A stretch of 38,794 bases of DNA from Verrucomicrobiota bacterium. GTDB taxonomy: Bacteria; Verrucomicrobiota; Verrucomicrobiia; Palsa-1439. Made by a program: the position numbers and the translations under genes. The DNA lies in NCBI GenBank assembly GCA_016871575.1, contig VHCW01000041.1, forward strand, positions 1 through 38,794, in the 5' to 3' direction. Under the pieces are notes generated by a model that ran no database searches, was not told the origin of the DNA, and worked only from the letters and a program-made list of their open reading frames with translations. Within the stretch, counting starts at the first letter, position 1. Every line of letters begins with the position of its first letter. Shown piece after piece: positions 12,142-33,584 of the stretch.

Positions 12142-12267
12142 ATGGAACAAATCATCATCCTCGATTTTGGGTCGCAATACACGCAAGTCATCGCACGGTG
12201 GATGCGCGAGCGCGGTGGAGGCCACGGCTTCCCAAGCCACGGGCAATCTGTTAGGTTTGGCTCATGA
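12142..12267 (+). pseudogene. guaA': Truncated duplicate of the guaA 5' end
   Basis: Bases 12142-12210 repeat the first 69 bases of intact guaA (13730-13798) with 64 matches. The first 53 bases differ at one synonymous position. The encoded start, [19 protein letters not shown], is identical to GuaA for 19 residues, after which the frame diverges and ends at TGA 12265-12267 after 41 codons. The stop overlaps the ATG of the MNT gene (ATGA), so translation of the stub probably feeds the nucleotidyltransferase gene. Sequence upstream of the two ATGs is unrelated. The glutaminase active site and everything after it are missing, so the stub has no GMP synthase function. Confidence 0.85.
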
Positions 12268-12590
12268 AAACTTTGGCTCCAACACTGCTGGATGAGGTCG
12301 TGGAACGGCTGGCAGCGGAGTTTACCCCGGAACAGATCATCCTCTTTGGTTCGCACGCTTGGGGAACGCCGACCGACGACAGCGATTTGGATTTGTTCGT
12401 TGTCGTCTCCGACAGCGATGAATCCTCCTACCGGCGCGATATTCGAGCGCGCCGCTGTCTGCACGGAATGGGGTTGGCCAAGGATGTACTGGTGCGCACC
12501 CGCGCGGAAACCGAACGTTATCGGGGTGTCGTCGCCTCGCTCGAACACAAGATCTTCACGGAAGGCAGAATCTTGTATGAACGAAGCTGA
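12264..12590 (+). CDS. mntA: MNT-domain minimal nucleotidyltransferase (MntA-type antitoxin)
   Basis: This 108-residue protein is a minimal nucleotidyltransferase. The signature is IILFGSHAWGTPTDDSDLDLFVV (about residues 25-47): the GSxAxG nucleotide loop and the metal-binding Asp pair in SDLDL, with a further strand at LAKDVLVRT. In characterised MntA/HepT systems the MNT protein adds AMP to the HEPN toxin and so inactivates it. All catalytic elements are present, so an active enzyme is expected. The start overlaps the guaA stub stop, and its 3' end overlaps the HEPN gene by 14 bases, the usual tight arrangement. It lies in the accessory patch between guaB3 and guaA. Confidence 0.9.
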   Translation: MKTLAPTLLDEVVERLAAEFTPEQIILFGSHAWGTPTDDSDLDLFVVVSDSDESSYRRDIRARRCLHGMGLAKDVLVRTRAETERYRGVVASLEHKIFTEGRILYERS

Positions 12591-12987
12591 ACGCAACTTG
12601 GTCCAGCAATGGCTGGTGAAAGCCAAGCACGACCTCGCTGCGGCGCAGCTCATTGCCGGCGCTGCTGATCCGTACCTGGACATGGCGCTGTTTCATCTCC
12701 AGCAAGCGGCTGAAAAAGCAGTCAAAGCTTATCTCGCCTTTCGCAATCAGCCGTTCCGCAAAACCCACGACATGGAGGAACTCGTCAGCTTGGCCGCCAC
12801 GTTGGACGCACGTTTCGAGGCATGGATCGAACCGGCTGATGATTTGACGCCATTTGCCACCGACTTCCGCTATCCCATGATGCGGGAACTGACCCGCGCC
12901 GAATACGACCAAGCCCTTCAAACTGCACAGAACCTATTTGCCTTCGTGCTTTCAGTGCTGCCAGCCGAGGTCCATCCGACACCATGA
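12577..12987 (+). CDS. HEPN-domain protein, partner of the MNT gene
   Basis: This 136-residue all-alpha protein is of HEPN type (PF05168-like). The first helices carry VQQWLVKAKHDLAAAQLI, followed by MALFHLQQAAEKAVKAYLA and the family segment PFRKTHDMEELV, with FRYPMMRELTRAEYDQAL near the end. The start is ATG 12577, overlapping the MNT stop region. HEPN partners of MNT are usually RNase toxins with an Rx4-6H motif. Here the only nearby candidate is an Arg seven residues before the His of KTHD, which is slightly too far, so RNase activity is uncertain and it may belong to the THD-type subgroup. With the MNT gene it forms a toxin-antitoxin or nucleotide-responsive pair. Confidence 0.88.
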   Translation: MNEAERNLVQQWLVKAKHDLAAAQLIAGAADPYLDMALFHLQQAAEKAVKAYLAFRNQPFRKTHDMEELVSLAATLDARFEAWIEPADDLTPFATDFRYPMMRELTRAEYDQALQTAQNLFAFVLSVLPAEVHPTP

Positions 12988-21233: not shown

Positions 21234-22943
21234 ATGAGTGACGCACTCACACAAAGTTTGTCTCTCGACCAACTGCTCAGCCAGATGGTCGCGGCCAAGC
21301 AACTGTCCGTGCCTGACGCGGAACTGTTGCGGCGCGGGCGGCAGTCTGTCGCCGGCGAGGAGGACGTGCTTCGCTGGCTCGCGAAAGAATACGGACTCGC
21401 CTTCACCATGCTCGACGACCTCGAACCGGACCGCGAGCTTCTCTCATTGTTCCCCGCGCGCATTCTCCTGAAGGAAGAATTGCTCCCGCTGCGCCGCGTC
21501 AATGGCACCGTCCAGATCGCCACCAGCCGGCTGTTCGCCACGCAGGGACTCGACGCGCTGAAAACCCTCACCGGCCTCCAACTCCAACCGGTGCTTGCCA
21601 CCGGCGAAGTCGTCCAGCGCGAAATCAAACGCCGCCTCGGCGTCGGCGCCGACACCATCGGCACGCTCGACGAGGAGAAAACCTTTCAGGTCGTTGATGA
21701 AGGCGAGGAACAGACGGATCTCGACACCGGCATAGAGGACGAAGCCTCCATCATCCGCTTTGTCAACCAAGTCCTCAAGGACGCCATTGACCTGCGAGCC
21801 TCCGACCTCCACCTCGAACCGTTCGAGGACGAGTTCCGGATTCGCTACCGCATTGACGGCGACTTGCAGGACATTCCCGTCCCGGCGCAACTCAAGCGGT
21901 TCCAGCCGGCCATTGTGTCGCGCATCAAAATCCTCAGCCACCTCAACATCGCCGAGAAGCGGTTGCCGCAGGACGGCGCCATCAAGATTCTCGTCGGCGA
22001 CGCTGAGGTGGACATCCGCGTTTCCATCATCCCGATGATCCACGGCGAGGCGGTTGTCATGCGCTTGCTGAGGCAGAACGTGACGTTGCGCGGCATGGTC
22101 CAACTCGACATGGCGCCGCGCGAATACCAATGTTTCCAGCGCGTCCTTCGCCTCCCGCACGGCATCATCCTCGTCACCGGCCCGACCGGCAGCGGCAAGA
22201 CCTCGACGCTCTACACCGCGCTCGGCGAGATCAACGACACCATCCGCAAGATCATCACCGTCGAGGACCCGGTCGAGTACCGGCTCAAAGGCGTCAACCA
22301 AATCCAGGTCTCCGAGAAATCCGGACTCACGTTCGCGCGCGGCCTGCGTTCGATTCTCCGCCACGACCCCGACGTCGTGCTCATCGGCGAAATCCGCGAC
22401 CAGGAAACCGCGCAGATTGCCGTCCAAGCCTCGCTCACCGGCCACTTGGTCTTCTCGACACTCCACACCAACGATGCCCCGACCGCGTTCACCCGTTTGG
22501 TGGACATGGGCGTTGAACCGTATCTTGTCGCTTCCTCGGTGGAAGCCGTGCTCGCCCAGCGTCTCGTCCGTGTTCTCTGCGAGCAATGCAAGCAACCCGA
22601 CACTTCGCCCGCCGCGCAAGCGTTCAAAGCGAAAGTCGGCATCCCCGCCGACGTGACGATTTACAAATCCGTTGGCTGCCGCGAGTGCCGCAACACCGGT
22701 TTCCTTGGCCGGCACGCCATCTTCGAGTGGTTGGACACCGACACCGAGATTCGCAAACTGGTTCTGCAAAACGCCTCGACCGACCAACTCCGCGACGCCG
22801 CTCGCCGCGGCGGCATGAGCACGCTGGCCGAAGACGGCTGGCGGCTTGTGCGCGCAGGTATCACAACCGTCGAAGAAGTGTTGAGCGTCACCACGGCGAA
22901 AGAAATCGAACGCACGACAAAGACGAAGACGAAGGGATCATGA
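21234..22943 (+). CDS. gspE: Type II secretion ATPase GspE (PilB-like)
   Basis: This 569-residue cytoplasmic hexameric ATPase powers pseudopilus assembly. An N-terminal T2SSE_N/MshEN-type region (residues 1-140) is followed by the catalytic domain: Walker A GPTGSGKTSTLYTAL near 315, Asp box EDPVEYRLKGVNQIQV, Walker B VVLIGEIRDQETAQIAVQA near 380-395, and the His box TGHLVFSTLHTND. A tetracysteine zinc site is formed by CEQC near 449 and CREC near 482. All motifs are intact. It is the first core gene of the operon. The gspF partner would normally follow directly but is displaced by an inserted toxin-antitoxin cassette. Confidence 0.96.
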   Translation: MSDALTQSLSLDQLLSQMVAAKQLSVPDAELLRRGRQSVAGEEDVLRWLAKEYGLAFTMLDDLEPDRELLSLFPARILLKEELLPLRRVNGTVQIATSRLFATQGLDALKTLTGLQLQPVLATGEVVQREIKRRLGVGADTIGTLDEEKTFQVVDEGEEQTDLDTGIEDEASIIRFVNQVLKDAIDLRASDLHLEPFEDEFRIRYRIDGDLQDIPVPAQLKRFQPAIVSRIKILSHLNIAEKRLPQDGAIKILVGDAEVDIRVSIIPMIHGEAVVMRLLRQNVTLRGMVQLDMAPREYQCFQRVLRLPHGIILVTGPTGSGKTSTLYTALGEINDTIRKIITVEDPVEYRLKGVNQIQVSEKSGLTFARGLRSILRHDPDVVLIGEIRDQETAQIAVQASLTGHLVFSTLHTNDAPTAFTRLVDMGVEPYLVASSVEAVLAQRLVRVLCEQCKQPDTSPAAQAFKAKVGIPADVTIYKSVGCRECRNTGFLGRHAIFEWLDTDTEIRKLVLQNASTDQLRDAARRGGMSTLAEDGWRLVRAGITTVEEVLSVTTAKEIERTTKTKTKGS

Positions 22944-22945
22944 GA

Positions 22946-23061
22946 ATAAATCCGAAATCCGAATCTCGAAATCCGAAACAGATTCGAATGACCAAAGCGG
23001 CAATTCGAATTTCGGATTTTCCGCGTTGTTTCGGATTTCGGATTTCGGATTTCGGATTTTC
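22946..23061. repeat. TTCGGAT-type repeats forming a long imperfect hairpin
   Basis: The gspE-gspF spacer begins with AATCCGAAATCCGAA-type repeats and ends with about four TTCGGATTTCGGAT repeats in the opposite orientation, so the two halves can pair over more than 30 bases. There is no T-tract terminator. A related set occurs at 23868-23955. Confidence 0.7.
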
Positions 23062-23110: not shown

Positions 23111-23464
23111 TTAGATCACAACCTGCACCGACTGAGGGTCGAGTTCGACGAGGGAGTTGTTTTGGAGGGCGGCAATGATCGCCGGCAGGTGCCGTTCGAC
23201 CAGCGCGGTCAGATCGCGAGTGCGGATGTTGCCGGTGCGAATCAACAACAGTTTCCACGGTTCGCCCCGCTGGAGATGGGAGTAAAAGAAGTCAGTGTCC
23301 TTGGTAATCACCACGCGGTGCTCCGCCACGGAGAACGCGTTGATCACGTCGTCGGTCGTGGCATTGTAGGCTGGCAATTGCCGCGTGTGAACGGCCTCAT
23401 GCCCGGCAGCTTGGAGCACGCCGCACAACCTTGGCGGCAGGTGCGCATCAACGAGGAATCTCAT
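23111..23464 (-). CDS. DUF5615 PIN-like toxin-type protein
   Basis: This 117-residue protein starts at ATG 23464, overlapping the DUF433 stop (ATGA). It opens with MRFLVDAHLPPRLCGVLQAAG and continues with HEAVHTRQLP, then VVITKDTDFFYSHLQRG and KLLLIRTGNI. These are the acidic residues and strands of the Mut7-C/PIN-like DUF5615 family: Asp in LVDAHLP, and Asp pairs in DDVI and TKDTDF. Members pair with DUF433 antitoxins in VapBC-like modules and are presumed RNases. The module lies antisense within the gsp operon, between the two copies of the gspF start. Toxicity has not been shown. Confidence 0.9.
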   Translation of the reverse strand: MRFLVDAHLPPRLCGVLQAAGHEAVHTRQLPAYNATTDDVINAFSVAEHRVVITKDTDFFYSHLQRGEPWKLLLIRTGNIRTRDLTALVERHLPAIIAALQNNSLVELDPQSVQVVI

Positions 23465-23694
23465 GAAAGCGCCAAGTGCAGGCTCTTTTGTTTGAGCGAT
23501 GCCGCCGCAAACTCCAGACACGCACGGAGATCATCGCGTTCCAAGTCTGGGAACTCGCGCAACAAATCCTCAAAGCTGTCTCCCGCCGCGAGGTATTCAA
23601 GGATGGTTTCGACGGGATACCGCAGGTGGCGAATGGCCGGTTTGCCGTGGCAAATCGCCGGGTCAATCGTGATGCGAGACAGCAGTGCGTTCAT
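23461..23694 (-). CDS. DUF433 antitoxin-type protein
   Basis: This 77-residue protein starts at ATG 23694; a GTG at 23706 would add four residues. The DUF433 core reads RITIDPAICHGKPAIRHLR, then YPVETILEYLAAGDSFEDLL, then FPDLERDDLRACLEFAA, a winged-helix-like fold that usually serves as the DNA-binding antitoxin. The usual GGKPxIRGTR is here HGKPAIRHLR. It precedes the DUF5615 gene with a four-base overlap, the typical order. It probably autoregulates from a promoter in 23695-23760, though none was recognised. Confidence 0.9.
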   Translation of the reverse strand: MNALLSRITIDPAICHGKPAIRHLRYPVETILEYLAAGDSFEDLLREFPDLERDDLRACLEFAAASLKQKSLHLALS

Positions 23695-23960
23695 GACGAG
23701 AGACACTAGCTTTCCGATGCACCAGTTGTCAAGTTGTGGCAGTCCATTGTTTCACGCCAAGGCTGTCATTCTGGGCGCAGCGAAGAATCTCAGTTTTTCC
23801 TTCCCGGAACGACAGAGGCCCTTCGCTTCGCTCAGGGTGACAGGCTTTGAAGAACAGCCGTTTTGGTCATTCGGATTTCGTGCTTGTTTCGGATTGCCGC
23901 ATACGACAGTGGCGTCTCGTCGGACTCGGCTTCGGATTTCGTGCTTCGGATTTTCTTAAA
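23695..23960. other. Intergenic region between the TA cassette and gspF
   Basis: These 266 bases carry no supported gene. They hold the upstream region of the antisense DUF433 gene, a palindromic dispersed repeat (23764-23842) and TTCGGATTTCG-type repeats (23868-23955) that run up to the gspF ATG. No ribosome site is seen before gspF. Confidence 0.7.
23764..23842. repeat. REP-like palindromic element (TGTCATTCTGG...GGGTGACA)
   Basis: The element begins TGTCATTCTGGGCGCAGCG and ends with CTTCGCTTCGCTCAGGGTGACA-like sequence, which are imperfect inverted repeats of each other (TGTCAxxCTGxGCGxAGCGAAG). The same motif family is dispersed in many bacterial genomes as a small non-coding repeat. Confidence 0.7.
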
Positions 23961-23992
23961 ATGCCCACATTCACCTACAAAGCAGTCGGCGC
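23961..23992 (+). repeat. Right copy of the gspF-start direct repeat
   Basis: This is the partner of 23069-23100, with 31 of 32 positions identical. Recombination between the copies would remove 892 bp containing the DUF433/DUF5615 pair and restore gspE-gspF. Confidence 0.8.
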
Positions 23993-25193
23993 GGACGGCG
24001 CTCTGGCGGAAGGCCAGATTGACGCCGGGAGCCGGCCGGAGGCGTTTCGTCAAATGGAAACGCGCGGGCTGCGGCCGGTGAACCTTGCGGAGAAGACAGC
24101 CAGTGAGGACGAAAGCAATGCGCCAGCAGCGTTTTCCTTCAAGTTGCAGTCGCACAAGATCACGGCGAAGGCGCTGGAGAATTTCACGCGACTGCTGTCG
24201 AGCTTGCTGGCGGCGGGCGTTGCGTTGAGCCGGGCGCTGGTGATTCTGTATCGCGAAGCGAGCACGCCGGTGGCGGGCGCGAAGTGGAAGGAGATTCACG
24301 GTCTGGTCGTGGATGGGATGTCGCTGGCCGACGCGATGGCGAAATCGCCGGAGACATTCCCGCGGGTCTATACGGCGATGGTGGCGGCGGGCGAGACGGG
24401 CGGATTCCTCGATGTGGTGCTGGCGCAGATTGCGGATTTCCAATCGCGCGAGAAGGAACTGCGTTCCAAAGTAATGACAGCGCTGCTTTACCCGGCCATC
24501 CTGCTGGTGCTGGCGCTGGCGGTGCTGGCGTTTCTGCTGGTGTTCTTCATTCCGCGGTTCCAGAAGGTCTTCTCCGGTTTTGGCGGCTCGCTGCCGGTGA
24601 TTACACAACTCATCATCGGCGCCAGCGACTTGTTGCGGTCGTATGGTTTGTTTGTGCTGGTCGGATTTTTTGTCATCGGGCTGATGCTGCGGAGTTGGTT
24701 TGCCTCGGAGAAGGGGCGACGGGTGTGGGAGGGATTGATGTTGCGCGCGCCGCTGGTCGGGCCGCTGGTGGCGCAGTTTGCGATGGCGCGGTTCTGCCGG
24801 ATGCTGGGCACGTTGCTCGGCGCGGGCGTGCCGCTGATCCACGCGCTCAACGTCGCCCGCAAATCCATCGGCAACCAGATTCTGGTGGACGCCGTCTCGA
24901 CCTCGATTGAAGGCGTCCAGGAAGGCGCGCGGCTTGGCCAGAGCTTGGCCAGTTGTCGCGGACTGTTTCCGGGGTCGGTGCTTGAAATGATTTCCGTCGC
25001 GGAGGAAAGCGGGCGGCTCGATGGCGAGTTGATCCGCATCGCGAATGTCACCGAAACCGATCTCGACCGTCACTTGAAGACGGCGGTGGCGTTTGCGGAG
25101 CCGCTGATGCTGTTTTTGATCGCCGGTTTCATCGGGACAATTTTCATCGGCATGTTGCTGCCGATTTTCTCGCTGCAGGAGTACATCAAATAA
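23961..25193 (+). CDS. gspF: Type II secretion inner-membrane platform protein GspF
   Basis: This 410-residue platform protein has the usual length. It has the family N-terminus (MPTFTYKAVGADGALAEG), two T2SSF domains of about 120 residues each (LENFTRLLSSLLAAGVALSRAL and FCRMLGTLLGAGVPLIHALNV, each followed by a GxxLxxAM/GxxLGxSL-type helix) and membrane segments near residues 172-195, 222-240 and 380-400. It connects GspE to the assembling pseudopilus. The gene is complete although a copy of its first 32 bases sits upstream. It has no visible ribosome site, so its expression after the insertion is uncertain. Confidence 0.95.
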   Translation: MPTFTYKAVGADGALAEGQIDAGSRPEAFRQMETRGLRPVNLAEKTASEDESNAPAAFSFKLQSHKITAKALENFTRLLSSLLAAGVALSRALVILYREASTPVAGAKWKEIHGLVVDGMSLADAMAKSPETFPRVYTAMVAAGETGGFLDVVLAQIADFQSREKELRSKVMTALLYPAILLVLALAVLAFLLVFFIPRFQKVFSGFGGSLPVITQLIIGASDLLRSYGLFVLVGFFVIGLMLRSWFASEKGRRVWEGLMLRAPLVGPLVAQFAMARFCRMLGTLLGAGVPLIHALNVARKSIGNQILVDAVSTSIEGVQEGARLGQSLASCRGLFPGSVLEMISVAEESGRLDGELIRIANVTETDLDRHLKTAVAFAEPLMLFLIAGFIGTIFIGMLLPIFSLQEYIK

Positions 25194-25213: not shown

Positions 25214-25654
25214 ATGAATCCAAATCATCGTCGGACAAATCGAATCGGCCAGGAGGCGTTCACGCTGGTCGAACTGTTGCTGGTGCTCACCATCCTCGGC
25301 ATCCTCGCCGCGCTGGTCGTGCCGAAAATGGTCGGGCGCAGCGAACAGGCCCGCACCGTGGCCGCCCGCACGGACATCGCCACGTTCAGCACGGCGCTGG
25401 ACGCATTCGAGGTGGACAACGGTTATTACCCGAAGGGCAAGGGCGGCCTCGGCGATCTCGTCGTGCAGCCGCGCGATTGCCCGAACTGGCGCGGGCCGTA
25501 TGTGAAGGAAATCCCGAAGGACCCGTGGGGCAACGATTACGTTTACGAAGCTCCCGGCCGGCACAATCCGAAGTCGTACGACCTTTATTCCGCCGGTCCT
25601 GACGGGCGTCCCGGCAACGAGGACGATATCACCAACTGGACGGCCAGAAGGTAA
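25214..25654 (+). CDS. gspG: Major pseudopilin GspG
   Basis: This 146-residue protein has a type IV prepilin leader, then FTLVELLLVLTILGILAALVV, then the GspG body with PKDPWGNDYVYEAPG and the C-terminal SAGPDGRPGNEDDITNW loop, the calcium-binding and GspG-specific signature. Glu5 after cleavage is present. The residue before the cleavage site is Ala (QEA/FTLVE) instead of the usual Gly, which prepilin peptidase normally tolerates less well. An AGGAA site lies just upstream of the ATG. It forms the bulk of the pseudopilus. Confidence 0.96.
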   Translation: MNPNHRRTNRIGQEAFTLVELLLVLTILGILAALVVPKMVGRSEQARTVAARTDIATFSTALDAFEVDNGYYPKGKGGLGDLVVQPRDCPNWRGPYVKEIPKDPWGNDYVYEAPGRHNPKSYDLYSAGPDGRPGNEDDITNWTARR

Positions 25655-25657
25655 GGA

Positions 25658-26179
25658 ATGCGCGCAAAGCTTCCAACCCGTCATCTCACCCCTGCCAAGG
25701 CTGGGTTCACCTTCATCGAGTTGATCCTCGTGATGGCGTTGTTGGTGGCGATGATTTCGGTGGCCGCGCCGATGCTCTCGGAATTTTTCCGGGGCCGGAC
25801 GCTGGACTCCGAGGCGCGACGGTTATTGGCGTTGACGCGGGCGGCGCAGGTGCGGGCGGTGTCGGAAGGCTTGCCGATGTTGTTGTGGGTGGACGCCAAT
25901 GAGCACACCTACGGCTTGGAGCAGGAGACGCCGCCGCGCGATGGCGATTCGCGGGCGCTGGAATTTGAGTTGGACGAAAACCTGTTGCTGGAGGCCGTGA
26001 AGGCGAACCCGGTGCCGGTGCGCGGCAAGTCGTTGCCGGCGATCCGGTTTTTGCCGGAAGGCGTGGTGGACGAATCCAGCCCGACCGTCCTGCAGTTGAC
26101 GGCGATGGACAGTTCGACGTTGTGGCTGGTGCAGAGCACGAATCGCGTGAATTATGAAATTCGCAACATCCATCCATAA
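25658..26179 (+). CDS. gspH: Minor pseudopilin GspH-like
   Basis: This 173-residue protein has the prepilin motif KAG/FTFIELILVMALLVAMISVA followed by a GspH-type region (RTLDSEARRLLALTRAAQVRAVSEGLPMLLWVD, YGLEQE). It starts three bases after gspG and its 3' end overlaps gspI by 26 bases. The body is diverged, so the H assignment rests on the GspH/FimT-like helix and gene order. Confidence 0.85.
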   Translation: MRAKLPTRHLTPAKAGFTFIELILVMALLVAMISVAAPMLSEFFRGRTLDSEARRLLALTRAAQVRAVSEGLPMLLWVDANEHTYGLEQETPPRDGDSRALEFELDENLLLEAVKANPVPVRGKSLPAIRFLPEGVVDESSPTVLQLTAMDSSTLWLVQSTNRVNYEIRNIHP

Positions 26180-26534
26180 CCGCAACGGCTTCACGCTGGC
26201 CGAGTTGTTGGCGGCGCTGATGTTTCTGGCCATTGTCGTGCCGGTCAGCGTCGGGGCGTTGCGCATCGCCGGCCTGGCCGGCGAAGTGGCGGCGCGCAAG
26301 GCCGTCGCCGCGCGCGTGGCGGAGCGGGTGTTGAACGAGAGCCTCGTCATGGGGAACTGGAACCGCTCCCAGCAAAGCGGCGCGATCACGGAAAACGGCG
26401 TCGAGTACCGCTGGACGCTGCTCAACGAGCGTTGGCCGGTGGATGAGATGCAGTTGTTGACGGCAGAAGTCAGTTTCAACGCGCAGGACCGGGAACAATC
26501 AGTGCGCCTGAGCACGCTGGTGAATTCGCCATGA
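26154..26534 (+). CDS. gspI: Minor pseudopilin GspI-like
   Basis: This 126-residue protein has the prepilin motif RNG/FTLAELLAALMFLAIVVPVSVGALR. A helix with AARVAERVLNESLVMGNW follows, similar to the GspI segment with AENxxxE, and then a short beta region (VEYRWTLLNERWP). It is small, as GspI usually is, and lies between gspH and gspJ with overlaps on both sides. It is predicted to form the pseudopilus tip with GspJ and GspK. Confidence 0.85.
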   Translation: MKFATSIHNRNGFTLAELLAALMFLAIVVPVSVGALRIAGLAGEVAARKAVAARVAERVLNESLVMGNWNRSQQSGAITENGVEYRWTLLNERWPVDEMQLLTAEVSFNAQDREQSVRLSTLVNSP

Positions 26535-27217
26535 GGAAGACACGACAACGCGCCGCAGGGTTCACATTGATGGAACTGCTGTTGGCGATGGGAGTGAGCG
26601 CGGTGGCATTGGCCGCGATCAACGCCCTGTTTTTCAGCGCGATTCGCCTCCGGGAAACCGCGCTGGACGCCGTGGACAACGCGCTGCCGATGGAACAGGC
26701 GTTGACCGTGGTGCGGCGCGATTTGCAGGACGTGATGCTGTCGCCGTCCACCAACCGCGTCATGTCCGGCGATTTTCGCGTGGGCGACATCGGCAGCATC
26801 GGTTTCAGCGAGAGCGTCAATATCGAGCTATACACCACCACCGGCACGCTGCGCGACCACGAGGCATGGGCGGAAGTCCAGCGCGTCACGTACCGTCTGC
26901 GCGAATCAAACGACCGTTCCAGCGCCGGCAAGGAGCTGGTCCGGGGCGTCACGCGCAATCTGCTCGCCACCATCACGCCGATGCCGGACGAACAAGTGTT
27001 GCTGACCAACGTCAAGATGCTCGAAATCGAGTGTTACGACGGCTTCCAATGGCGCAACACGTGGGACTCCACGCAAAACGACACCAACCTGCCGGTGGCT
27101 GTCCGCATGAGAATTCTCCCGTCGGTGCCCCCGGCCAATCCGGAGCCGATTGAATTGCTGGTGCCGATCCAAGTGCAGGTGACCGCAAACGAAACCGAGA
27201 CGGAGGAAACGCCATGA
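26531..27217 (+). CDS. gspJ: Minor pseudopilin GspJ-like
   Basis: This 228-residue protein has the prepilin motif AAG/FTLMELLLAMGVSAVALAAINALFF. A GspJ-type helix (EQALTVVRRDLQDVML) is followed by a beta-rich body with VTYRLRES, LLTNVKMLEIECYDG and WRNTWDST. The pattern of a first large residue pair and a final value/adjustment region (VAVRMRILPS) is typical of GspJ. It overlaps gspI and gspK by four bases each. Confidence 0.87.
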   Translation: MRKTRQRAAGFTLMELLLAMGVSAVALAAINALFFSAIRLRETALDAVDNALPMEQALTVVRRDLQDVMLSPSTNRVMSGDFRVGDIGSIGFSESVNIELYTTTGTLRDHEAWAEVQRVTYRLRESNDRSSAGKELVRGVTRNLLATITPMPDEQVLLTNVKMLEIECYDGFQWRNTWDSTQNDTNLPVAVRMRILPSVPPANPEPIELLVPIQVQVTANETETEETP

Positions 27218-28515
27218 AACGGTTTCAAACCAATCAACGCGGCTCGGTGTTGATCATCGTGCTTTGGATTTCGTTCGGGCTGGTGAGCATGGCGCTGTAT
27301 CTTGCCCACGGGATGAGCCTGGAACTGCGCGCCGCCGACAATCGCGCCGCCGCGCTGGCCGCCGACCAAGCCATCGAGGGCGCGGCGCGTTATATCAGCG
27401 AAGTGTTGTACGCCTACGCGACCAACGGCGTCATGCCCGACCTTTCGCAATACGATGCCGAAGCCGTGCCGGTGGGCGATGCGCGTTTCTGGATCATCGG
27501 CCGCGATCCTGCCTGGCCGCGCAGCCATTCGGACCGCGTCTATTTCGGGCTGGTGGACGAGGCGTCAAAGTTGAACCTGAACTCCGTCTCGACCAATCAG
27601 CTGCAATATCTCCCCAGCATGAATTGGGACCTGCTCAACGCGATTCTCGACTGGCGCAATCCGAACGCCAGCGGCGCGTCGCAGATGTACTACGCGATGG
27701 CTTCATCGCCGTACACCTGCAAGGGCGCGCCGTTCGAAACGGTTGACGAATTGCGGCTGGTCTATGGCACTTCGCTGGAAATCCTTGCCGGCGACGACGT
27801 CAACCGCAACGGCATCCTCGACGCGCACGAGAAAGACATCGAAGGCAACAACCAGTGCGATCCGGGGATCTTCGAGTACCTGACCGTCTATAGCCGCGAG
27901 CCGAATTTCCACAGCGACGGCACGATGAAGACCAATGTGAACTCCGCCGCGCAATTGTTGCCGCTGTTGCAGGAGCGGCTCGGCCCGTCACGGGCAAGCC
28001 AAATCATGGTTCGGCTCGGGCCGTTGCCATCGCCCAGTTTGCTGGCGTTCTATTTGCGCAGCGGGATGACAGCCGACGAGTTCGCGTTGATTTATCGCGA
28101 TGTCACCACCACAAATTCCCGCTACCGTCGCGGCCGGGTCAACATCAACACCGCGCCCGTTGCCGTGCTCGCCTGCCTGCCGGGCATGGACGACAATTCC
28201 GCCCAACAAATTGTCTCCTACCGCCAGACCGCCGCAAACCTCACCTCCATCGCGTGGATTGCGGACGCGCTTGGCGCGACCAATCCCGTGCTCCTCCAGC
28301 TCGCTGCCGGCGATTACATCACCACGCAAAGCTACCAATTCACGGCTGACATCGCCGCGCTCGGCCAGCACGGGCGCGGCTACCGGCGCGCCAAGTTCAT
28401 TTTCGACATCACCGAGGGCGCGCCCAAAATCCTTTACCGCCAGGACCTGACCCGGCTCGGCTGGGCGCTGGGCGAAACTGTCCGACAAGAATGGGTGCTG
28501 AAGAACACGCTATGA
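27214..28515 (+). CDS. gspK: Pseudopilus tip protein GspK-like
   Basis: This 433-residue protein is longer than typical GspK. The N-terminus QRGSVLIIVLWISFGLVSMALYLAHG is the GspK-type prepilin helix and lacks Glu5, as usual. The body contains FGLVDEASKLNLNSVSTNQL and repeats of the type LLNAILDWRNPN. Helix-hairpin-helix-like segments (RVNINTAPVAVLACLPGMDD) follow, the large alpha domain that caps the pseudopilus. The stop overlaps the gspL start. Extra length comes mainly from a loop near residues 180-240 rich in Asp/Asn. Confidence 0.88.
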   Translation: MKRFQTNQRGSVLIIVLWISFGLVSMALYLAHGMSLELRAADNRAAALAADQAIEGAARYISEVLYAYATNGVMPDLSQYDAEAVPVGDARFWIIGRDPAWPRSHSDRVYFGLVDEASKLNLNSVSTNQLQYLPSMNWDLLNAILDWRNPNASGASQMYYAMASSPYTCKGAPFETVDELRLVYGTSLEILAGDDVNRNGILDAHEKDIEGNNQCDPGIFEYLTVYSREPNFHSDGTMKTNVNSAAQLLPLLQERLGPSRASQIMVRLGPLPSPSLLAFYLRSGMTADEFALIYRDVTTTNSRYRRGRVNINTAPVAVLACLPGMDDNSAQQIVSYRQTAANLTSIAWIADALGATNPVLLQLAAGDYITTQSYQFTADIAALGQHGRGYRRAKFIFDITEGAPKILYRQDLTRLGWALGETVRQEWVLKNTL

Positions 28516-29957
28516 TTGACCTTGAAAAATTCTATCCCGCCAAACGCCGGCGCTTGTCCGCGCTGCTGGGGCTTGCGCTCGACGGCAGCCGGCTCGACGG
28601 CGTGCTGTTGCGCCGCACCAACGGTTCGCTGCAACTCATGCAGTCGTTCTCCGTGACGCTGTCGCTCGACCCGTTGACTGCCGATCCTGAACTTGTGGCG
28701 CGCGAAATCCGCAACCACCTCGATGCCGCCGGCATCAAGGAACACCATTGCGCGGTGTGTCTGCCGTTGAAATGGGCGCTCAGTGTTCATTCGGATTTGC
28801 CCGATTTGCCGGAAACCGACGTGGCCAGTTTCCTCGCCATCGAGGCCGAGCGCGGTTTTCCCTGCGATGTGGGGACGCTGCGGCTCGCCACGTCGCGCTC
28901 CGCCAGGCGCGCCGCGCAAATCGGCCTGCCCGCCAACCAGCTTGCCGCGCTCGAAAACATTTTGCGCCGGGCCAAATTGAAACCGGTCAGTTTCTCGCTC
29001 GGCATCGCCGCGCTCCAACCGCCGGAAGACGCATCCTCCGACGGCGTGCTGGCGCTGGCCATCGGCGAGACGCAGCTCGATCTCCAGGTCACCGCCGGCG
29101 GAGGCGTGGTGGCGTTGCGGACGCTGGAGGGAGCGTTTGATCGCGACGGCGGTCAACCCGCGCTCGATGCCGATCTTGTCGCGCGCGAATTGCGGATCAC
29201 GCTCGGCCAACTGCCGGCGGAGGCGCGCGCCGCGCTGCGCCGGGTCCGGTTGTTCGGGCCGCGCGACCTCGCCCGTCAACTGGCCGATGCGCTGAAATCG
29301 CGCCTGGAATCCCTCGACTTGCCGGTGGAACAGGTGGCGGCGTACAGCGCGGACGATTTCGGCCTGCAAGCGCCGTCCGATGCCCCCGTGTCGCGCGCGT
29401 TCAGCCTCGCCGCCCGTCAACTGGCGCGCCGCGAAGCGGCGTTTGAGTTTTTGCCGCCGCAGGTCACGGTCTGGCAACAATTGGCCGCGCGATATTCCTC
29501 CGGCCGTTGGCGGATGATCGGGGCGGCCTCGGCAGCCGTTGTCGTGTTGATTGGCGGCCCGTTTCTCGTCCAGCAAATCCAGCTCATGACACTGCGCGCC
29601 CGCTGGGATGGAATGTCGGCGAAAGTCGCCCAACTCGAAAACGTGCAGCGCCAGATTCGGCAATACCGCCCGTGGTTCGACAGCAACTTCCGATCGCTGC
29701 GCGTCCTGCGGCAACTGAGCGAGTCGTTTCCCGAGGACGGCTCGGTCACGGCCAAGAACGTCGAAATCCGCGACCAGCGTGTCGTGACCTGTTCGGGCGT
29801 CGCGCGCGACAACGCCGCGCTGCTGCGGACGCTGGGCCAGTTGCGCGGCGCGAAATCCGTGAGCGATGTGAAGGTGTCCCAGATTCGCGGCAAGAAGGCG
29901 ATGCAGTTCGTCTTCGATTTCCGCTGGCAGGAAGGAGGCAGGAATGAAAATCCGTAA
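28512..29957 (+). CDS. gspL: GspL/PilM-like assembly protein
   Basis: This 481-residue protein starts at ATG 28512, overlapping the gspK stop. An actin-like PilM/GspL cytoplasmic domain occupies residues ~15-320 (LLGLALDGSRLDGVLLRR, CAVCLPLKWALSVHSDLPDL, SFLAIEAERGFPCDV). One membrane helix lies near 335-355 (MIGAASAAVVVLIGGPFLV), and a periplasmic ferredoxin-like domain follows with a coiled coil (KVAQLENVQRQIRQYRPW). It is thus a fusion of PilM-like and PilN-like parts, as in classical GspL. It recruits GspE to the platform and binds GspM, whose gene overlaps its end. Confidence 0.85.
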   Translation: MIDLEKFYPAKRRRLSALLGLALDGSRLDGVLLRRTNGSLQLMQSFSVTLSLDPLTADPELVAREIRNHLDAAGIKEHHCAVCLPLKWALSVHSDLPDLPETDVASFLAIEAERGFPCDVGTLRLATSRSARRAAQIGLPANQLAALENILRRAKLKPVSFSLGIAALQPPEDASSDGVLALAIGETQLDLQVTAGGGVVALRTLEGAFDRDGGQPALDADLVARELRITLGQLPAEARAALRRVRLFGPRDLARQLADALKSRLESLDLPVEQVAAYSADDFGLQAPSDAPVSRAFSLAARQLARREAAFEFLPPQVTVWQQLAARYSSGRWRMIGAASAAVVVLIGGPFLVQQIQLMTLRARWDGMSAKVAQLENVQRQIRQYRPWFDSNFRSLRVLRQLSESFPEDGSVTAKNVEIRDQRVVTCSGVARDNAALLRTLGQLRGAKSVSDVKVSQIRGKKAMQFVFDFRWQEGGRNENP

Positions 29958-30474
29958 TCGCCAACAATGGCTCGTGGTGATTGCCGTGGCCGGCATCGTC
30001 CTGCTGGTGGCGGACCGGGCGGTGCTCACGCCGTTGATGGGGCTGTGGAAGGCGCGCTCCGCCAGGGTCGCCGACCTGCGCAAACAGATCGCGCAGGGCG
30101 AGAACCTCCTGCAACGCGAGCAGTCCATTCACCGGCGCTGGGACGAAATGCGCCGCCAAACGCTGCCGAAGGATTCCTCGGTCGCTGAACAACAATTGTT
30201 GAAGGCGTTCGATGCCTGGGCGCGCGACAGCCGCGCCGCGATCTCGCTCATCACGCCGCAATGGAAACAGGACGACGAATACAAGACCCTCGAATGCCGC
30301 GTGGACGCCTCCGGCAGCCTGGAGACCTTGTGCCGGTTCCTCTACAGCGTCGAGAAAGACCCGATGGCATTGAGATTCGACAGGGTGGAACTCACCACGC
30401 ACGACGACAACGGGCAACAACTGACGCTCGCGTTGCAAGTCAGCGGCCTCGTGCTTACTCCCTCGACGCCATGA
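29944..30474 (+). CDS. gspM: GspM/PilO-like inner-membrane protein
   Basis: This 176-residue protein has a single membrane helix (LVVIAVAGIVLLVADRAVL, residues ~10-28), a coiled coil (VADLRKQIAQGENLLQREQ) and a ferredoxin-like periplasmic domain ending in LTLALQVSGLVL. The order helix, coil, ferredoxin matches GspM/PilO. It overlaps gspL by 14 bases and the GspC-like gene by four. Sequence similarity in this family is low, so the name rests on architecture and position. Confidence 0.75.
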   Translation: MKIRNRQQWLVVIAVAGIVLLVADRAVLTPLMGLWKARSARVADLRKQIAQGENLLQREQSIHRRWDEMRRQTLPKDSSVAEQQLLKAFDAWARDSRAAISLITPQWKQDDEYKTLECRVDASGSLETLCRFLYSVEKDPMALRFDRVELTTHDDNGQQLTLALQVSGLVLTPSTP

Positions 30475-30998
30475 ATGCATCCCGCATCACACTCATTGTA
30501 TTGGCGTGTCTCCTCAGCGTGGCCAAGGGCGCGGAGAACCTCGATTCGTTCCGCATCATCGGCCAGCGCAACATCTTCAACCTCCACCGCACGCCCCGGC
30601 GACCGGAAACCGGCGCCGTCCGCCCGCCGCCACGCCCGACTGTCGGCGACACGTTCACGCTGGTTGGAACGATGGCGTATGAGACCAACCAACTCGCCTT
30701 CTTCGACGGGACGAGTTCTGATTGTCGCAAGGCGTTGAAGCTCGACGACACCATCGCCGGCTACAAACTCGTCTCCATTGCCTTCAACAGCGTCCGCCTC
30801 GAAGCCGGCGGCCAGCCGTTTGATCTGCGCGTCGGCGCCCGATTGCCGCGCGCCGCCGGCAGCGCCGCGCCGCCTTCGACCAACATCGAAACCAACGTCG
30901 AAGTTCCCACCGTGCCGTCTGCGCCGGCAGCGCCAGCGGGAGACCCGAGCGAGATCCTCAAGAAACTCATGCAGAAACGAGAGCAGGAGATGAAATGA
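30471..30998 (+). CDS. gspC: GspC-like periplasmic protein (HR domain)
   Basis: This 175-residue protein has an N-terminal hydrophobic segment (RITLIVLACLLSVAKGAE, signal or anchor), then FRIIGQRNIFNLHRTPRRPE, a Pro-rich linker, and a small beta domain: TFTLVGTMAYETNQLAFFDG, RKALKLDDTIAGYKLVSIAF, VRLEAGGQPFDLRVG. This is the homology-region pattern of GspC, which touches the N0 domain of the secretin. The NIF box before the linker is typical. No PDZ domain is present. It directly precedes the secretin genes, as expected for a partner. A PilP-like label would be equally acceptable. Confidence 0.7.
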   Translation: MNASRITLIVLACLLSVAKGAENLDSFRIIGQRNIFNLHRTPRRPETGAVRPPPRPTVGDTFTLVGTMAYETNQLAFFDGTSSDCRKALKLDDTIAGYKLVSIAFNSVRLEAGGQPFDLRVGARLPRAAGSAAPPSTNIETNVEVPTVPSAPAAPAGDPSEILKKLMQKREQEMK

Positions 30999-32332
30999 AA
31001 ACAAAAATCATTCGCATATTGTCAGTAACCGTCCTGGCTGGCTTGTTGTGGACGGCTGTCGCCCAACAGACGCCGCTTCCGCCACCACCGCCCATCGAGG
31101 CGCCGCCGGTGGTGTTGGTGGCCACGAATGCGCCGCCAGAGATGACAACGCCGGCGCCGACCAATCCGCCTGCCGCGACGGAGACCGCGCCGACGTCGTT
31201 GCCGCCGCCGGAGCCGCCGTTGGTGATGCTGGGCGAGAACGAGATGCGGCTGAACTTCCGCAATGCGCCGCTGGACGTCGTGTTGAGCCATCTCAGCGAG
31301 GCGTGCGGATTCATCATCGAGTTGCAGACGCCGGTGCGCGGGACGGTGGACGTGTTCAGCGCAAAGCCCGTGACGAAGGACGAGGCGATTGACCTGCTGA
31401 ACTCGATGCTCAACAAGAACGGATACGCCGCCATCCGCAACGGGCGCAAACTGACCATCTTCAGCAAGACCGACGCGGTGCGCCGCGACATTCCCGTCAA
31501 GACCGGCAACGATCCGGAGGCGGTTCCGAAGAATGACGAGCTTGTCACGCAGATCATTCCGATCCGGTTCGTCGAGGCCACGCAACTGGCGAAGGACCTG
31601 TCGCCGATGGTGTCGCCGCAGGCATTGATCGTGGCCAACGAAGCCGGCAATTCCATCGCCGTCACGGACACGCAGGCGAACATCCGGCACCTCCTCGAAA
31701 TCATCAAGGCGATTGATTCCAGCGCCGAGGACGAGACGCAGGTGCGCGTGTTTATGTTGAAGCATGCCGACCCGATCGAAATGGCCGACCTGTTGACGAA
31801 CTTGTTCCCCGACCAGAGCAGCAGCGCGCAAGCGCCCATCCGATCCAGCAGCCGGAGCGGCAGCCCCTTCGGCGGTTCGAGCGGCGGCCCGTTGGGGATT
31901 ATTTCGTCCATCATGAGCGGTCGTCCGCCGGGACCGCCGCCAGGCGGAGGACAACAGCAGCAGCGCGTTCGCAAACGGGCGCAGGTGGTGGCGGTGCCCG
32001 ATGCGCGCACCGCGTCGCTGGTGGTGACCGCCTCGAAAGATTTGATGGAGCAAATTGCCGATGTCATCCAGCAACTGGACTTCCAGTCGCCAAAGGAAAC
32101 CCGCGTGCAGATGTTCCAACTGAAAAACGCCGACCCGCAAGAGGTGCTGCCGGTGTTGCAGGACATGTTCCAGAGCGGTTCCACCGGTCGCGGCGGCGCG
32201 CGCGGCTCGACACAGAACAGCCCGCTGATGAATCGCGTCCAGCAGGATCAGCGGCAGTCCACCACCGGCACCACCGGCAACCGGAGCGGCAGCGGTCTGG
32301 GCAGCGGACGCACCGGCGGAACGTCTTTCTAA
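30995..32332 (+). CDS. gspD: Secretin N-domain protein (N0-N1-N2 plus first half of N3), no channel domain
   Basis: This 445-residue protein has a signal peptide (core IRILSVTVLAGLLWTAVA) and a Pro-rich linker to ~residue 80. N0 follows (MRLNFRNAPLDVVLSHLSEACGF), then N1 (TQIIPIRFVEATQLAKDLSPMV...ANIRHLLEIIKAID) and N2 (VRVFMLKHADPIEMADLLTNLF...SLVVTASKDLMEQIADVIQQLD), interrupted by a Gly/Pro/Gln loop. Next comes only the first strand-helix of N3 (VQMFQLKNADPQEVLPVLQDMF), followed by a Gly/Ser/Thr-rich tail and a stop. The secretin barrel is absent and is encoded by the next gene. Together the two make a normal GspD. The split lies inside the N3 loop. Confidence 0.85.
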   Translation: MKTKIIRILSVTVLAGLLWTAVAQQTPLPPPPPIEAPPVVLVATNAPPEMTTPAPTNPPAATETAPTSLPPPEPPLVMLGENEMRLNFRNAPLDVVLSHLSEACGFIIELQTPVRGTVDVFSAKPVTKDEAIDLLNSMLNKNGYAAIRNGRKLTIFSKTDAVRRDIPVKTGNDPEAVPKNDELVTQIIPIRFVEATQLAKDLSPMVSPQALIVANEAGNSIAVTDTQANIRHLLEIIKAIDSSAEDETQVRVFMLKHADPIEMADLLTNLFPDQSSSAQAPIRSSSRSGSPFGGSSGGPLGIISSIMSGRPPGPPPGGGQQQQRVRKRAQVVAVPDARTASLVVTASKDLMEQIADVIQQLDFQSPKETRVQMFQLKNADPQEVLPVLQDMFQSGSTGRGGARGSTQNSPLMNRVQQDQRQSTTGTTGNRSGSGLGSGRTGGTSF

Positions 32333-32342
32333 CTGAACACCG

Positions 32343-32376
32343 ATGAACACACCAATGTACAATATGAACACACCAA
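32343..32376. repeat. In-frame 13-bp direct repeat at the secretin start
   Basis: ATGAACACACCAA occurs at 32343-32355 and 32364-32376, 21 bases apart and in frame, so the gene has two equivalent starts and an N-terminus MNTPMYNMNTPN. It may be simple slippage. Confidence 0.7.
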
Positions 32377-33584
32377 ACTGGAAACTGGGAATCATCGTGA
32401 GCGCCTGCCTGTGTGCTGCGTTGACCCTGCACGCGCAACAACGATTCGGCGGTTTTGGCACCGGCTCCACCCGCGGCAGCACCACTACTCGTGGCTCCAC
32501 TCGCAGCGGCACCGGCTCCGCCAGCCAGCAGCAATACAACCCCGCCGGCGGTGTTGGCAGCGCCACCATCTCCGTGGACTCCGATTCGCGCAACATCACC
32601 GTCATCGCCGACGAGGAGACGATGAAGAACATCGCCGAGGTCATCAAGAACCTCGACAAGCCGCGTCCCCAAGTGCTCATCAAGGTCGTGTTCCTGGAGG
32701 TCCAGCACAGCAAGGATTCCGACATCGGCATCGAAGGCGGCTGGGGCGGCAAGGTCGGCTCCACCGGCTCGGGCGCGTTCGCCAACGCCTTCGGCCTGTC
32801 GGGCCTCGCCTCCAGCGCGGCCACCAACCTCAACGTGTTCGGCCAGCCGGTCACCAGCTTCCTGCCGATGCCGCCGGGCGCGGGCCTCTACCAGGTTCTC
32901 GGCAAGGACTTCCAGGTGACCCTCCGCGCCATCGCGCAGGCCGGCAAAGCGCAGTTGCTCTCGCGCCCCTCCATCATCGCGCGCGACAACCAGCCCGCCT
33001 CCATCGTCGTCGGCCAGTCGGTGCCGTTGATCACCAGCGTCCGCTACGACACCTTCGGCAACGCCATCAACTCCGTCACCTACACCGACGTCGGCATCAT
33101 CCTCAAGGTCACGCCGTTCATCACCGGCGACGGCCTCGTGCAGATGATTGTGTCGCCGGAGACCTCGGCGATTGACCCGACGACGACCGTGCCGATCTCC
33201 ACCGGCGTCAGCGCGCCCGTCATCAACCAGCGCAACGCCGACACCGTGGTCATCACGCCGGACGGGCAAACCGTTGTCATCGGCGGACTGATGCGCAACG
33301 ACCGCACCGACTCCGAAAACAAGATCCCGGTGCTCGGCGACATTCCGCTGCTCGGCAATCTGTTCAAGCGAAAGATCAAGACGAACGTCAAAACCGAGTT
33401 GCTGATCTTCCTGACGCCGCACATCGTGCAGGCGCCCACGCAGCTTGCCGCCATGGGCGACAAGGAACGCAAACAAATCACCATCCCCGACTCCGACTCG
33501 GAACGCGAACTGAACCGGTTCCTCGACCAGATCCCGATGAAGGAGGACGAGAACACCGACAAACGACGGTCGAACCGGCGGTGA
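32343..33584 (+). CDS. gspD: Secretin channel protein (second half of N3 plus secretin domain)
   Basis: This 413-residue protein carries a signal peptide of its own (core LGIIVSACLCAALTLHAQ), a Gly/Ser/Thr-rich segment, and the second half of an N3 domain (RNITVIADEETMKNIAEVIKNLD). A complete secretin domain follows (QVLIKVVFLEV, AQLLSRPSIIARDNQPASIVVG, VGIILKVTPFI, VVIGGLMRND, KIPVLGDIPLLGNLF, ELLIFLTPHIV). This part forms the outer-membrane pore of the T2SS. The C-terminus is short and charged, with no clear pilotin signal. Two in-frame starts lie within a small repeat (ATG 32343 and 32364), and the second is closer to the signal peptide. Only ten bases separate it from the N-domain gene. 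Confidence 0.9.
   Translation: MNTPMYNMNTPNWKLGIIVSACLCAALTLHAQQRFGGFGTGSTRGSTTTRGSTRSGTGSASQQQYNPAGGVGSATISVDSDSRNITVIADEETMKNIAEVIKNLDKPRPQVLIKVVFLEVQHSKDSDIGIEGGWGGKVGSTGSGAFANAFGLSGLASSAATNLNVFGQPVTSFLPMPPGAGLYQVLGKDFQVTLRAIAQAGKAQLLSRPSIIARDNQPASIVVGQSVPLITSVRYDTFGNAINSVTYTDVGIILKVTPFITGDGLVQMIVSPETSAIDPTTTVPISTGVSAPVINQRNADTVVITPDGQTVVIGGLMRNDRTDSENKIPVLGDIPLLGNLFKRKIKTNVKTELLIFLTPHIVQAPTQLAAMGDKERKQITIPDSDSERELNRFLDQIPMKEDENTDKRRSNRR

Follow-up and report, generated by a model that had tools for sequence, protein, structure and literature searches.

The type II secretion system (T2SS) examined here has a secretin encoded by two adjacent genes, gspD1 and gspD2, and this split secretin is real, conserved and widespread in the phylum Verrucomicrobiota. 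We estimate a probability of roughly three in four that the two products, D1 and D2, together constitute the GspD of a bona fide T2SS, divided within the ring-building domain N3 and joined by its completion; the outer-membrane ring itself is inferred. The genes lie in the window, i.e. the entire 38,794-nt stretch of verrucomicrobial DNA that was analysed (Table 1). Both reading frames are open, encode proteins of 445 (D1, ORF1) and 413 (D2, ORF2) amino acids, and adjoin in different frames with 10 nt between them. D1 consists of a signal peptide (MKTKIIRILSVTVLAGLLWTAVA-QQ), the domains N0, N1 and N2, the first strand and helix of N3 (β1-α1; VQMFQLKNADPQEVLPVLQDMF) and a Gly/Ser/Thr-rich tail, while D2 starts with a signal peptide of its own (MNTPMYNMNTPNWKLGIIVSACLCAALTLHA-QQ) and a Gly/Ser-rich leader that precede the remainder of N3 (β2-β3-α2) and the secretin domain.

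Table 1. Genes of the T2SS operon and features of the split secretin in the window.
Feature	Position	Strand	Basis
gspE, secretion ATPase	21234–22943	+	PF00437 (E 7e-131), MshEN
gspF, inner-membrane platform	23847–25193	+	PF00482 (E 1e-51); start listed as TTG, possibly not the true one
gspG, major pseudopilin	25214–25654	+	PF08334 (E 1e-32)
gspH, minor pseudopilin	25658–26179	+	PF12019
gspI, minor pseudopilin	26154–26534	+	PF02501
gspJ, minor pseudopilin	26531–27217	+	PF11612
gspK	27214–28515	+	PF03934 and PF21687
gspL-like	28491–29957	+	weak PilN match (PF05137) and position
gspM-like	29944–30474	+	weak T2SSM_b match (PF10741) and position
gspC-like inner-membrane partner, 175 aa	30471–30998	+	position, N-terminal hydrophobic segment, RNIF motif
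gspD1, N-module chain	30995–32332	+	ORF, Pfam, TIGR02517
D1 signal peptide, predicted cleavage after AVA	30995–31063	+	sequence
D1 N0 domain, residues 86–151	31250–31447	+	PF21305
D1 N3 first half (β1-α1), residues 367–393	32093–32173	+	
D1 tail L-x-x-R motif (L411, R414)	32225–32236	+	conservation
gspD2, pore chain	32343–33584	+	ORF, Pfam, TIGR02517
D2 signal peptide, predicted cleavage after LHA	32343–32435	+	sequence; SP-like start in relatives
D2 N3 second half (β2-β3-α2), residues 72–107	32556–32663	+	PF03958 positions 27–69/69
D2 secretin pore domain, residues 196–363	32928–33431	+	PF00263 (E 6e-50)

The signal peptides were assessed by eye and with a home-made score, not with SignalP. 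Every relative with the 5' end of D1 on the contig has a signal-peptide-like D1 start (judged by eye for the three-piece locus L179). The exact start of D2 is less certain; no clear Shine-Dalgarno sequence was found upstream of it in the window genome, and an in-frame ATG 21 nt downstream would give a better signal peptide. A same-genus relative (G001) carries AGGAG upstream of D2.

The domain matches of the two chains are complementary. The N0 domain of D1 is of the GspD type (PF21305, 43.8 bits against a cut-off of 27), N1 and N2 are complete, and the Secretin_N model (PF03958) matches D1 in three stretches. D2 matches just positions 27–69 of this 69-position model, corresponding to the second half of the domain, and contains the secretin domain over model positions 1–169 of 169 (PF00263, 169.5 bits). 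N3 is thus complete only when the two proteins are joined. On the 600 positions of the NCBIfam GspD model TIGR02517, D1 spans 1–296 (190.7 bits) and D2 263–598 (259.5 bits). Neither chain reaches the cut-off of 351 bits that would define a single-polypeptide GspD, and the pair is therefore filed as a split variant and not as ordinary GspD. A preliminary description, made from the bare sequence, had proposed that the usual single gspD is here two genes, each with a signal peptide, the first product ending after one strand and helix of N3 in a Gly/Ser/Thr-rich tail, and the second opening with a similar low-complexity segment and the other half of N3; this gene structure was borne out in each respect.

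The same description had placed the break in the variable loop of N3, and alignment with PulD agrees: the D1 half ends at ~295 and the D2 half begins at ~309, adjoining (allowing for a possible offset in chain numbering) the loop 288–303 that was left unmodelled in the PulD cryo-EM structure (PMC6882859). In single-chain relatives this is the region of a long, disordered N3 loop of low complexity, which in some proteins includes an ALRxF-type stretch. In the lineage of the window (G000, G001, G008 and G020), D1 has one ring-building domain fewer than in the other five aligned relatives (window D1 aligned with L040–L044), and despite the missing domain the break is still located in the last one.

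D1 and D2 end a canonical T2SS operon with the order E-F-G-H-I-J-K-L-M-C-like-D1-D2, after which follows a histidine kinase gene. The stop codon of the gspC-like gene overlaps the start codon of D1 (ATGA), and in the relatives examined the gene is kept directly upstream of D1, with a conserved RNIF motif. Its product has no Pfam match, and its identity as GspC is thus inferred. The distant split pairs L171 and L173 also reside in a T2SS operon context. Between gspE and gspF, a pair of small frames on the opposite strand (23111–23706, −) is flanked by TTTCGGA repeats (23029–23059); we take these frames to resemble a DUF433/DUF5615 toxin-antitoxin pair. Elsewhere in the window (12264–12987, +), a nucleotidyltransferase-like frame with a GS...SDLDLFV motif is followed by a HEPN-domain protein (PF05168), similar to an MNT-HEPN toxin-antitoxin pair. 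The window genome encodes several secretion-type ATPases and, on other contigs, two single-chain GspD-type secretins of 786 (C44) and 882 (C85) amino acids, which like the split GspD possess N0, three Secretin_N stretches and a secretin domain, but on one chain.

In the nine genomes compared first, the two genes were adjacent, in identical order and with an identical cut site, and D2 always had its own signal peptide. The pair was subsequently read at 155 distinct loci, all broken at the identical place and with D2 signal peptides throughout the split loci surveyed; no fused D1–D2 gene was found among them. Could the division nevertheless be an artefact of sequencing, assembly or frameshifting, or is an intervening stop codon simply read through? 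About one third of the pairs do share a frame with a single stop between the genes, but this is the share expected by chance: the spacers (median 33 nt, quartiles 24–45 nt, 155 pairs) are distributed 60/44/51 over the three values of length modulo 3. Such near-random frames are the pattern of independent genes rather than of stops or frameshifts. A new start with a signal peptide is found again at each of the 155 loci, and the single real frameshift encountered (L301) looks different, with overlapping frames and no signal peptide. The survey leaves practically no room for an assembly error, frameshift or read-through, and the preliminary view of a clean arrangement, which a fused gene in relatives would have refuted, stands.

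The split secretin is common and, at least in places, patchily distributed. A scan of named genomes yielded 80 loci, some of which duplicate genomes already counted, and all belong to Verrucomicrobiota where named to phylum. D2 was present in 62 of the 384 genomes sampled from the class and, for a different order (that of G200), in 179 of 293. The split form also turned up in some genomes outside this class but within the phylum. In the order to which the window belongs, it was found in five of only 11 genomes surveyed, indicating a patchy occurrence there. An independent search with the end of D1 recovered the identical 62 of 384 genomes, a result that bears on whether D1 might be a decaying or regulatory leftover beside a D2 that works as a secretin alone. 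Such a role is conceivable in that the whole pore domain resides on D2 and expression data for D1 are lacking, but it is hard to credit when D1 accompanies D2 in every D2-bearing genome of the sample, its N0, N1 and N3 portions are under purifying selection, and the arginine of a motif in its tail is 99% conserved.

A quick tree was built from 113 secretin cores; its 59 split members fell on one side of a branch with an SH-aLRT support of 99, and the single-chain paralogues C44 and C85 were placed outside this clade. The result covers the sampled D2 chains, and no tree was made for D1. Since the split D2 cores form one clade, a single origin of the split suffices. A few loci depart from the common layout. 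Orphan D1-like genes without a nearby D2 were observed at L224 (763–2577, +) and L225 (3961–5277, +), although the respective genomes possess a regular D1–D2 pair as well, and at L097 (2768–3577) and L100 (9066–9871) D1 and D2 are separated by ~0.8 kb with no convincing gene inside. Four open frames of 3112–4105 amino acids with matches to secretin ring domains (L226, i.e. G095:C36; G677:C126; G371:C79; G705:C461) possibly encode giant single-chain secretins; L226 has many ring-domain matches and a C-terminal secretin domain scoring 199.8 bits.

In five genomes from two lineages, D1 is itself divided into two genes. These three-chain secretins occur in family f74 (G371, G688 and G705) and in genus g310 (G647 and G677, the latter also represented by L102/L238), with the loci L102 (7861–11065), L240, L179 (5192–8051), L329 and L330. 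Here, too, the additional break falls in an α1-β2 loop, that of a ring domain nearer the N-terminus, and the middle chain so created once more has a signal peptide and a Gly-rich leader at its start. A reading of these loci as pairs with an odd spacing of ~0.9 kb was dropped, as the interval encodes an extra chain that is predicted to be exported. In a three-chain secretin, two domains would need completion in trans. As the two lineages represent different families, the second break may have arisen twice, an inference made without a tree.

To our knowledge, type II secretins have been described as single chains. GspD, PulD and XcpQ (TIGR02517) share with D1 and D2 the order N0-N1-N2-N3-secretin, the operon and full-length homology, and differ from the proteins described here, which are two or three chains with their own signal peptides and a cut inside N3 and, in two lineages, a further cut in a preceding ring domain. 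In the literature searched, the term 'split secretin' is used in two papers, which both concern the Rhc family of type III secretion systems. In these systems, RhcC1/RhcC2 (NolW etc.; HrcIIC1/HrcIIC2) are likewise two genes for an N-terminal part and a pore part, RhcC1 being a remnant of type III N-domains and RhcC2 a Tad-like protein with a BON domain, encoded apart from each other (PMC3459982, PMC3574062, PMC4500985). D1 and D2, in contrast, are both GspD, adjacent, and broken within one domain. None of the Rhc hallmarks applies: the surrounding genes are those of a T2SS, D2 has its top NCBIfam match in type_II_gspD (259.5 bits) with no Tad secretin model among its NCBIfam matches, and D1 and D2 adjoin in every locus with both ends read. 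The Rhc systems do set a precedent for a chimera of two secretins (PMC3459982), where an old N-terminal remnant is proposed to be combined with a pore from another system. For D1 and D2 such an origin is very improbable, given that one GspD model is the top-scoring match of either half, in neighbouring ranges, and that the halves are encoded side by side within a T2SS operon and part inside a domain rather than between domains. Our literature search, which left most subscription journals out of scope, found no description of a split T2SS secretin, and the form is apparently undescribed.

Whether the two halves of N3 meet is a separate question from whether the gene is split. Both halves retain the pattern of hydrophobic residues seen in N2, which is intact, and several core positions of the D1 half (N3a) are 95–97% conserved. 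Comparison of the window with a same-genus relative gave a dN of 0.095 versus a dS of 0.78 for N3a, indicating purifying selection, which likewise acts on N0 and N1. In a mean-field coupling analysis of 150 D1–D2 pairs (effective number 86), N3a and the D2 half (N3b) gave the highest score of the 18 inter-protein block pairs, 4.76 against 3.87 for the next; the only block to exceed it overall was the within-chain, within-domain control N2a–N2b (5.17). N3a–N3b ranked first in 25 of 35 jackknife draws at 70% of the data. When partners were swapped among close relatives, the score dropped to 2.47 ± 0.21 compared with 4.06 observed for the reduced set, and none of 45 swaps scored as high. This null also strips some of the signal of shared ancestry, and the comparison between blocks is thus the better test. 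Contact between the halves is accordingly supported in a statistical sense, from sequence covariation only.

Structure prediction did not provide a corresponding model. AlphaFold, run twice on a natural in-frame read-through of L081 with both halves in cis, predicted each half with confidence but did not assemble them into a composite N3, and the overall confidence was low (pTM 0.37). In a model of N3 only, each half alone fitted the N domains of GspD (~1 Å over 34 residues), and the halves jointly were ~20 Å off. The test was weak, with 18 sequences and a 110-residue linker containing a signal peptide. The unjoined halves, the orphan copies of D1 and the long flexible tails at both ends would all be compatible with two stacked rings that touch without completing a domain, the N3 half of D1 pairing with itself or with a neighbouring subunit and D2 acting as a short pore similar to Tad or phage secretins. 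We regard this arrangement as unlikely: N3a is coupled more strongly to N3b than to any other segment of D2, and what is missing from one half is precisely what its counterpart supplies. The earlier suggestion of a single domain completed by the two chains in the periplasm thus has the conservation of the half-cores and their coupling in its favour, and neither a predicted structure nor physical proof. Completion of N3 in trans by D1 and D2 is likely but not shown, as physical data are absent.

The combined observations suggest a model in which D1 would supply the periplasmic N-module (N0-N1-N2) together with the first half of N3, and D2 the second half and the pore. Both chains are presumed to be exported by Sec, whereupon each D1 would dock on D2 through completion of N3, β1-α1 being contributed by D1 and β2-β3-α2 by D2. 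N3 would then serve as a clip that links the vestibule facing the inner membrane to the pore in the outer membrane, and the Gly/Ser/Thr-rich tails of D1 and D2 may represent the two ends of the former N3 loop. The tail of D1 is of low complexity except for an L-x-x-R motif (L 94%, R 99% in about 110 loci), which may bind D2 or another part of the T2SS, although there are no binding data. Co-transcription, export of both chains, co-assembly, ring formation and function in secretion are all inferred, in the absence of expression or protein data.

The split may also have a bearing on the stoichiometry of the secretin. The C-module of T2SS secretins, comprising N3 and the pore, is present in 15 copies, whereas 15 or 12 copies of the N-module are debated (PMC10550240). 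For single-chain secretins the 15:12 mismatch has no agreed solution. It is possible, if rather doubtful, that dividing the secretin uncouples the number of N-modules from that of the pore subunits, which is fixed, with a D2 ring of 15, the number in solved T2SS secretins, binding fewer or more D1 subunits via the half-N3 and the vestibule matching the ring in the inner membrane. If this were true, secretins of three chains would apply the clip principle a second time. It may be speculated that some N3 halves must remain empty if the copy numbers of the modules differ.

Since neither chain passes the NCBI cut-off for GspD, such systems may be overlooked or misannotated in automated surveys. 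The data reveal a clade of split secretins, common in Verrucomicrobiota, that is cut inside a folded ring domain, and suggest that N3 could act as a plug-in connection that links the vestibule to the pore. These bacteria offer a natural system in which the copies of the N-module and the pore can be counted separately, making the 15:12 symmetry mismatch directly testable.
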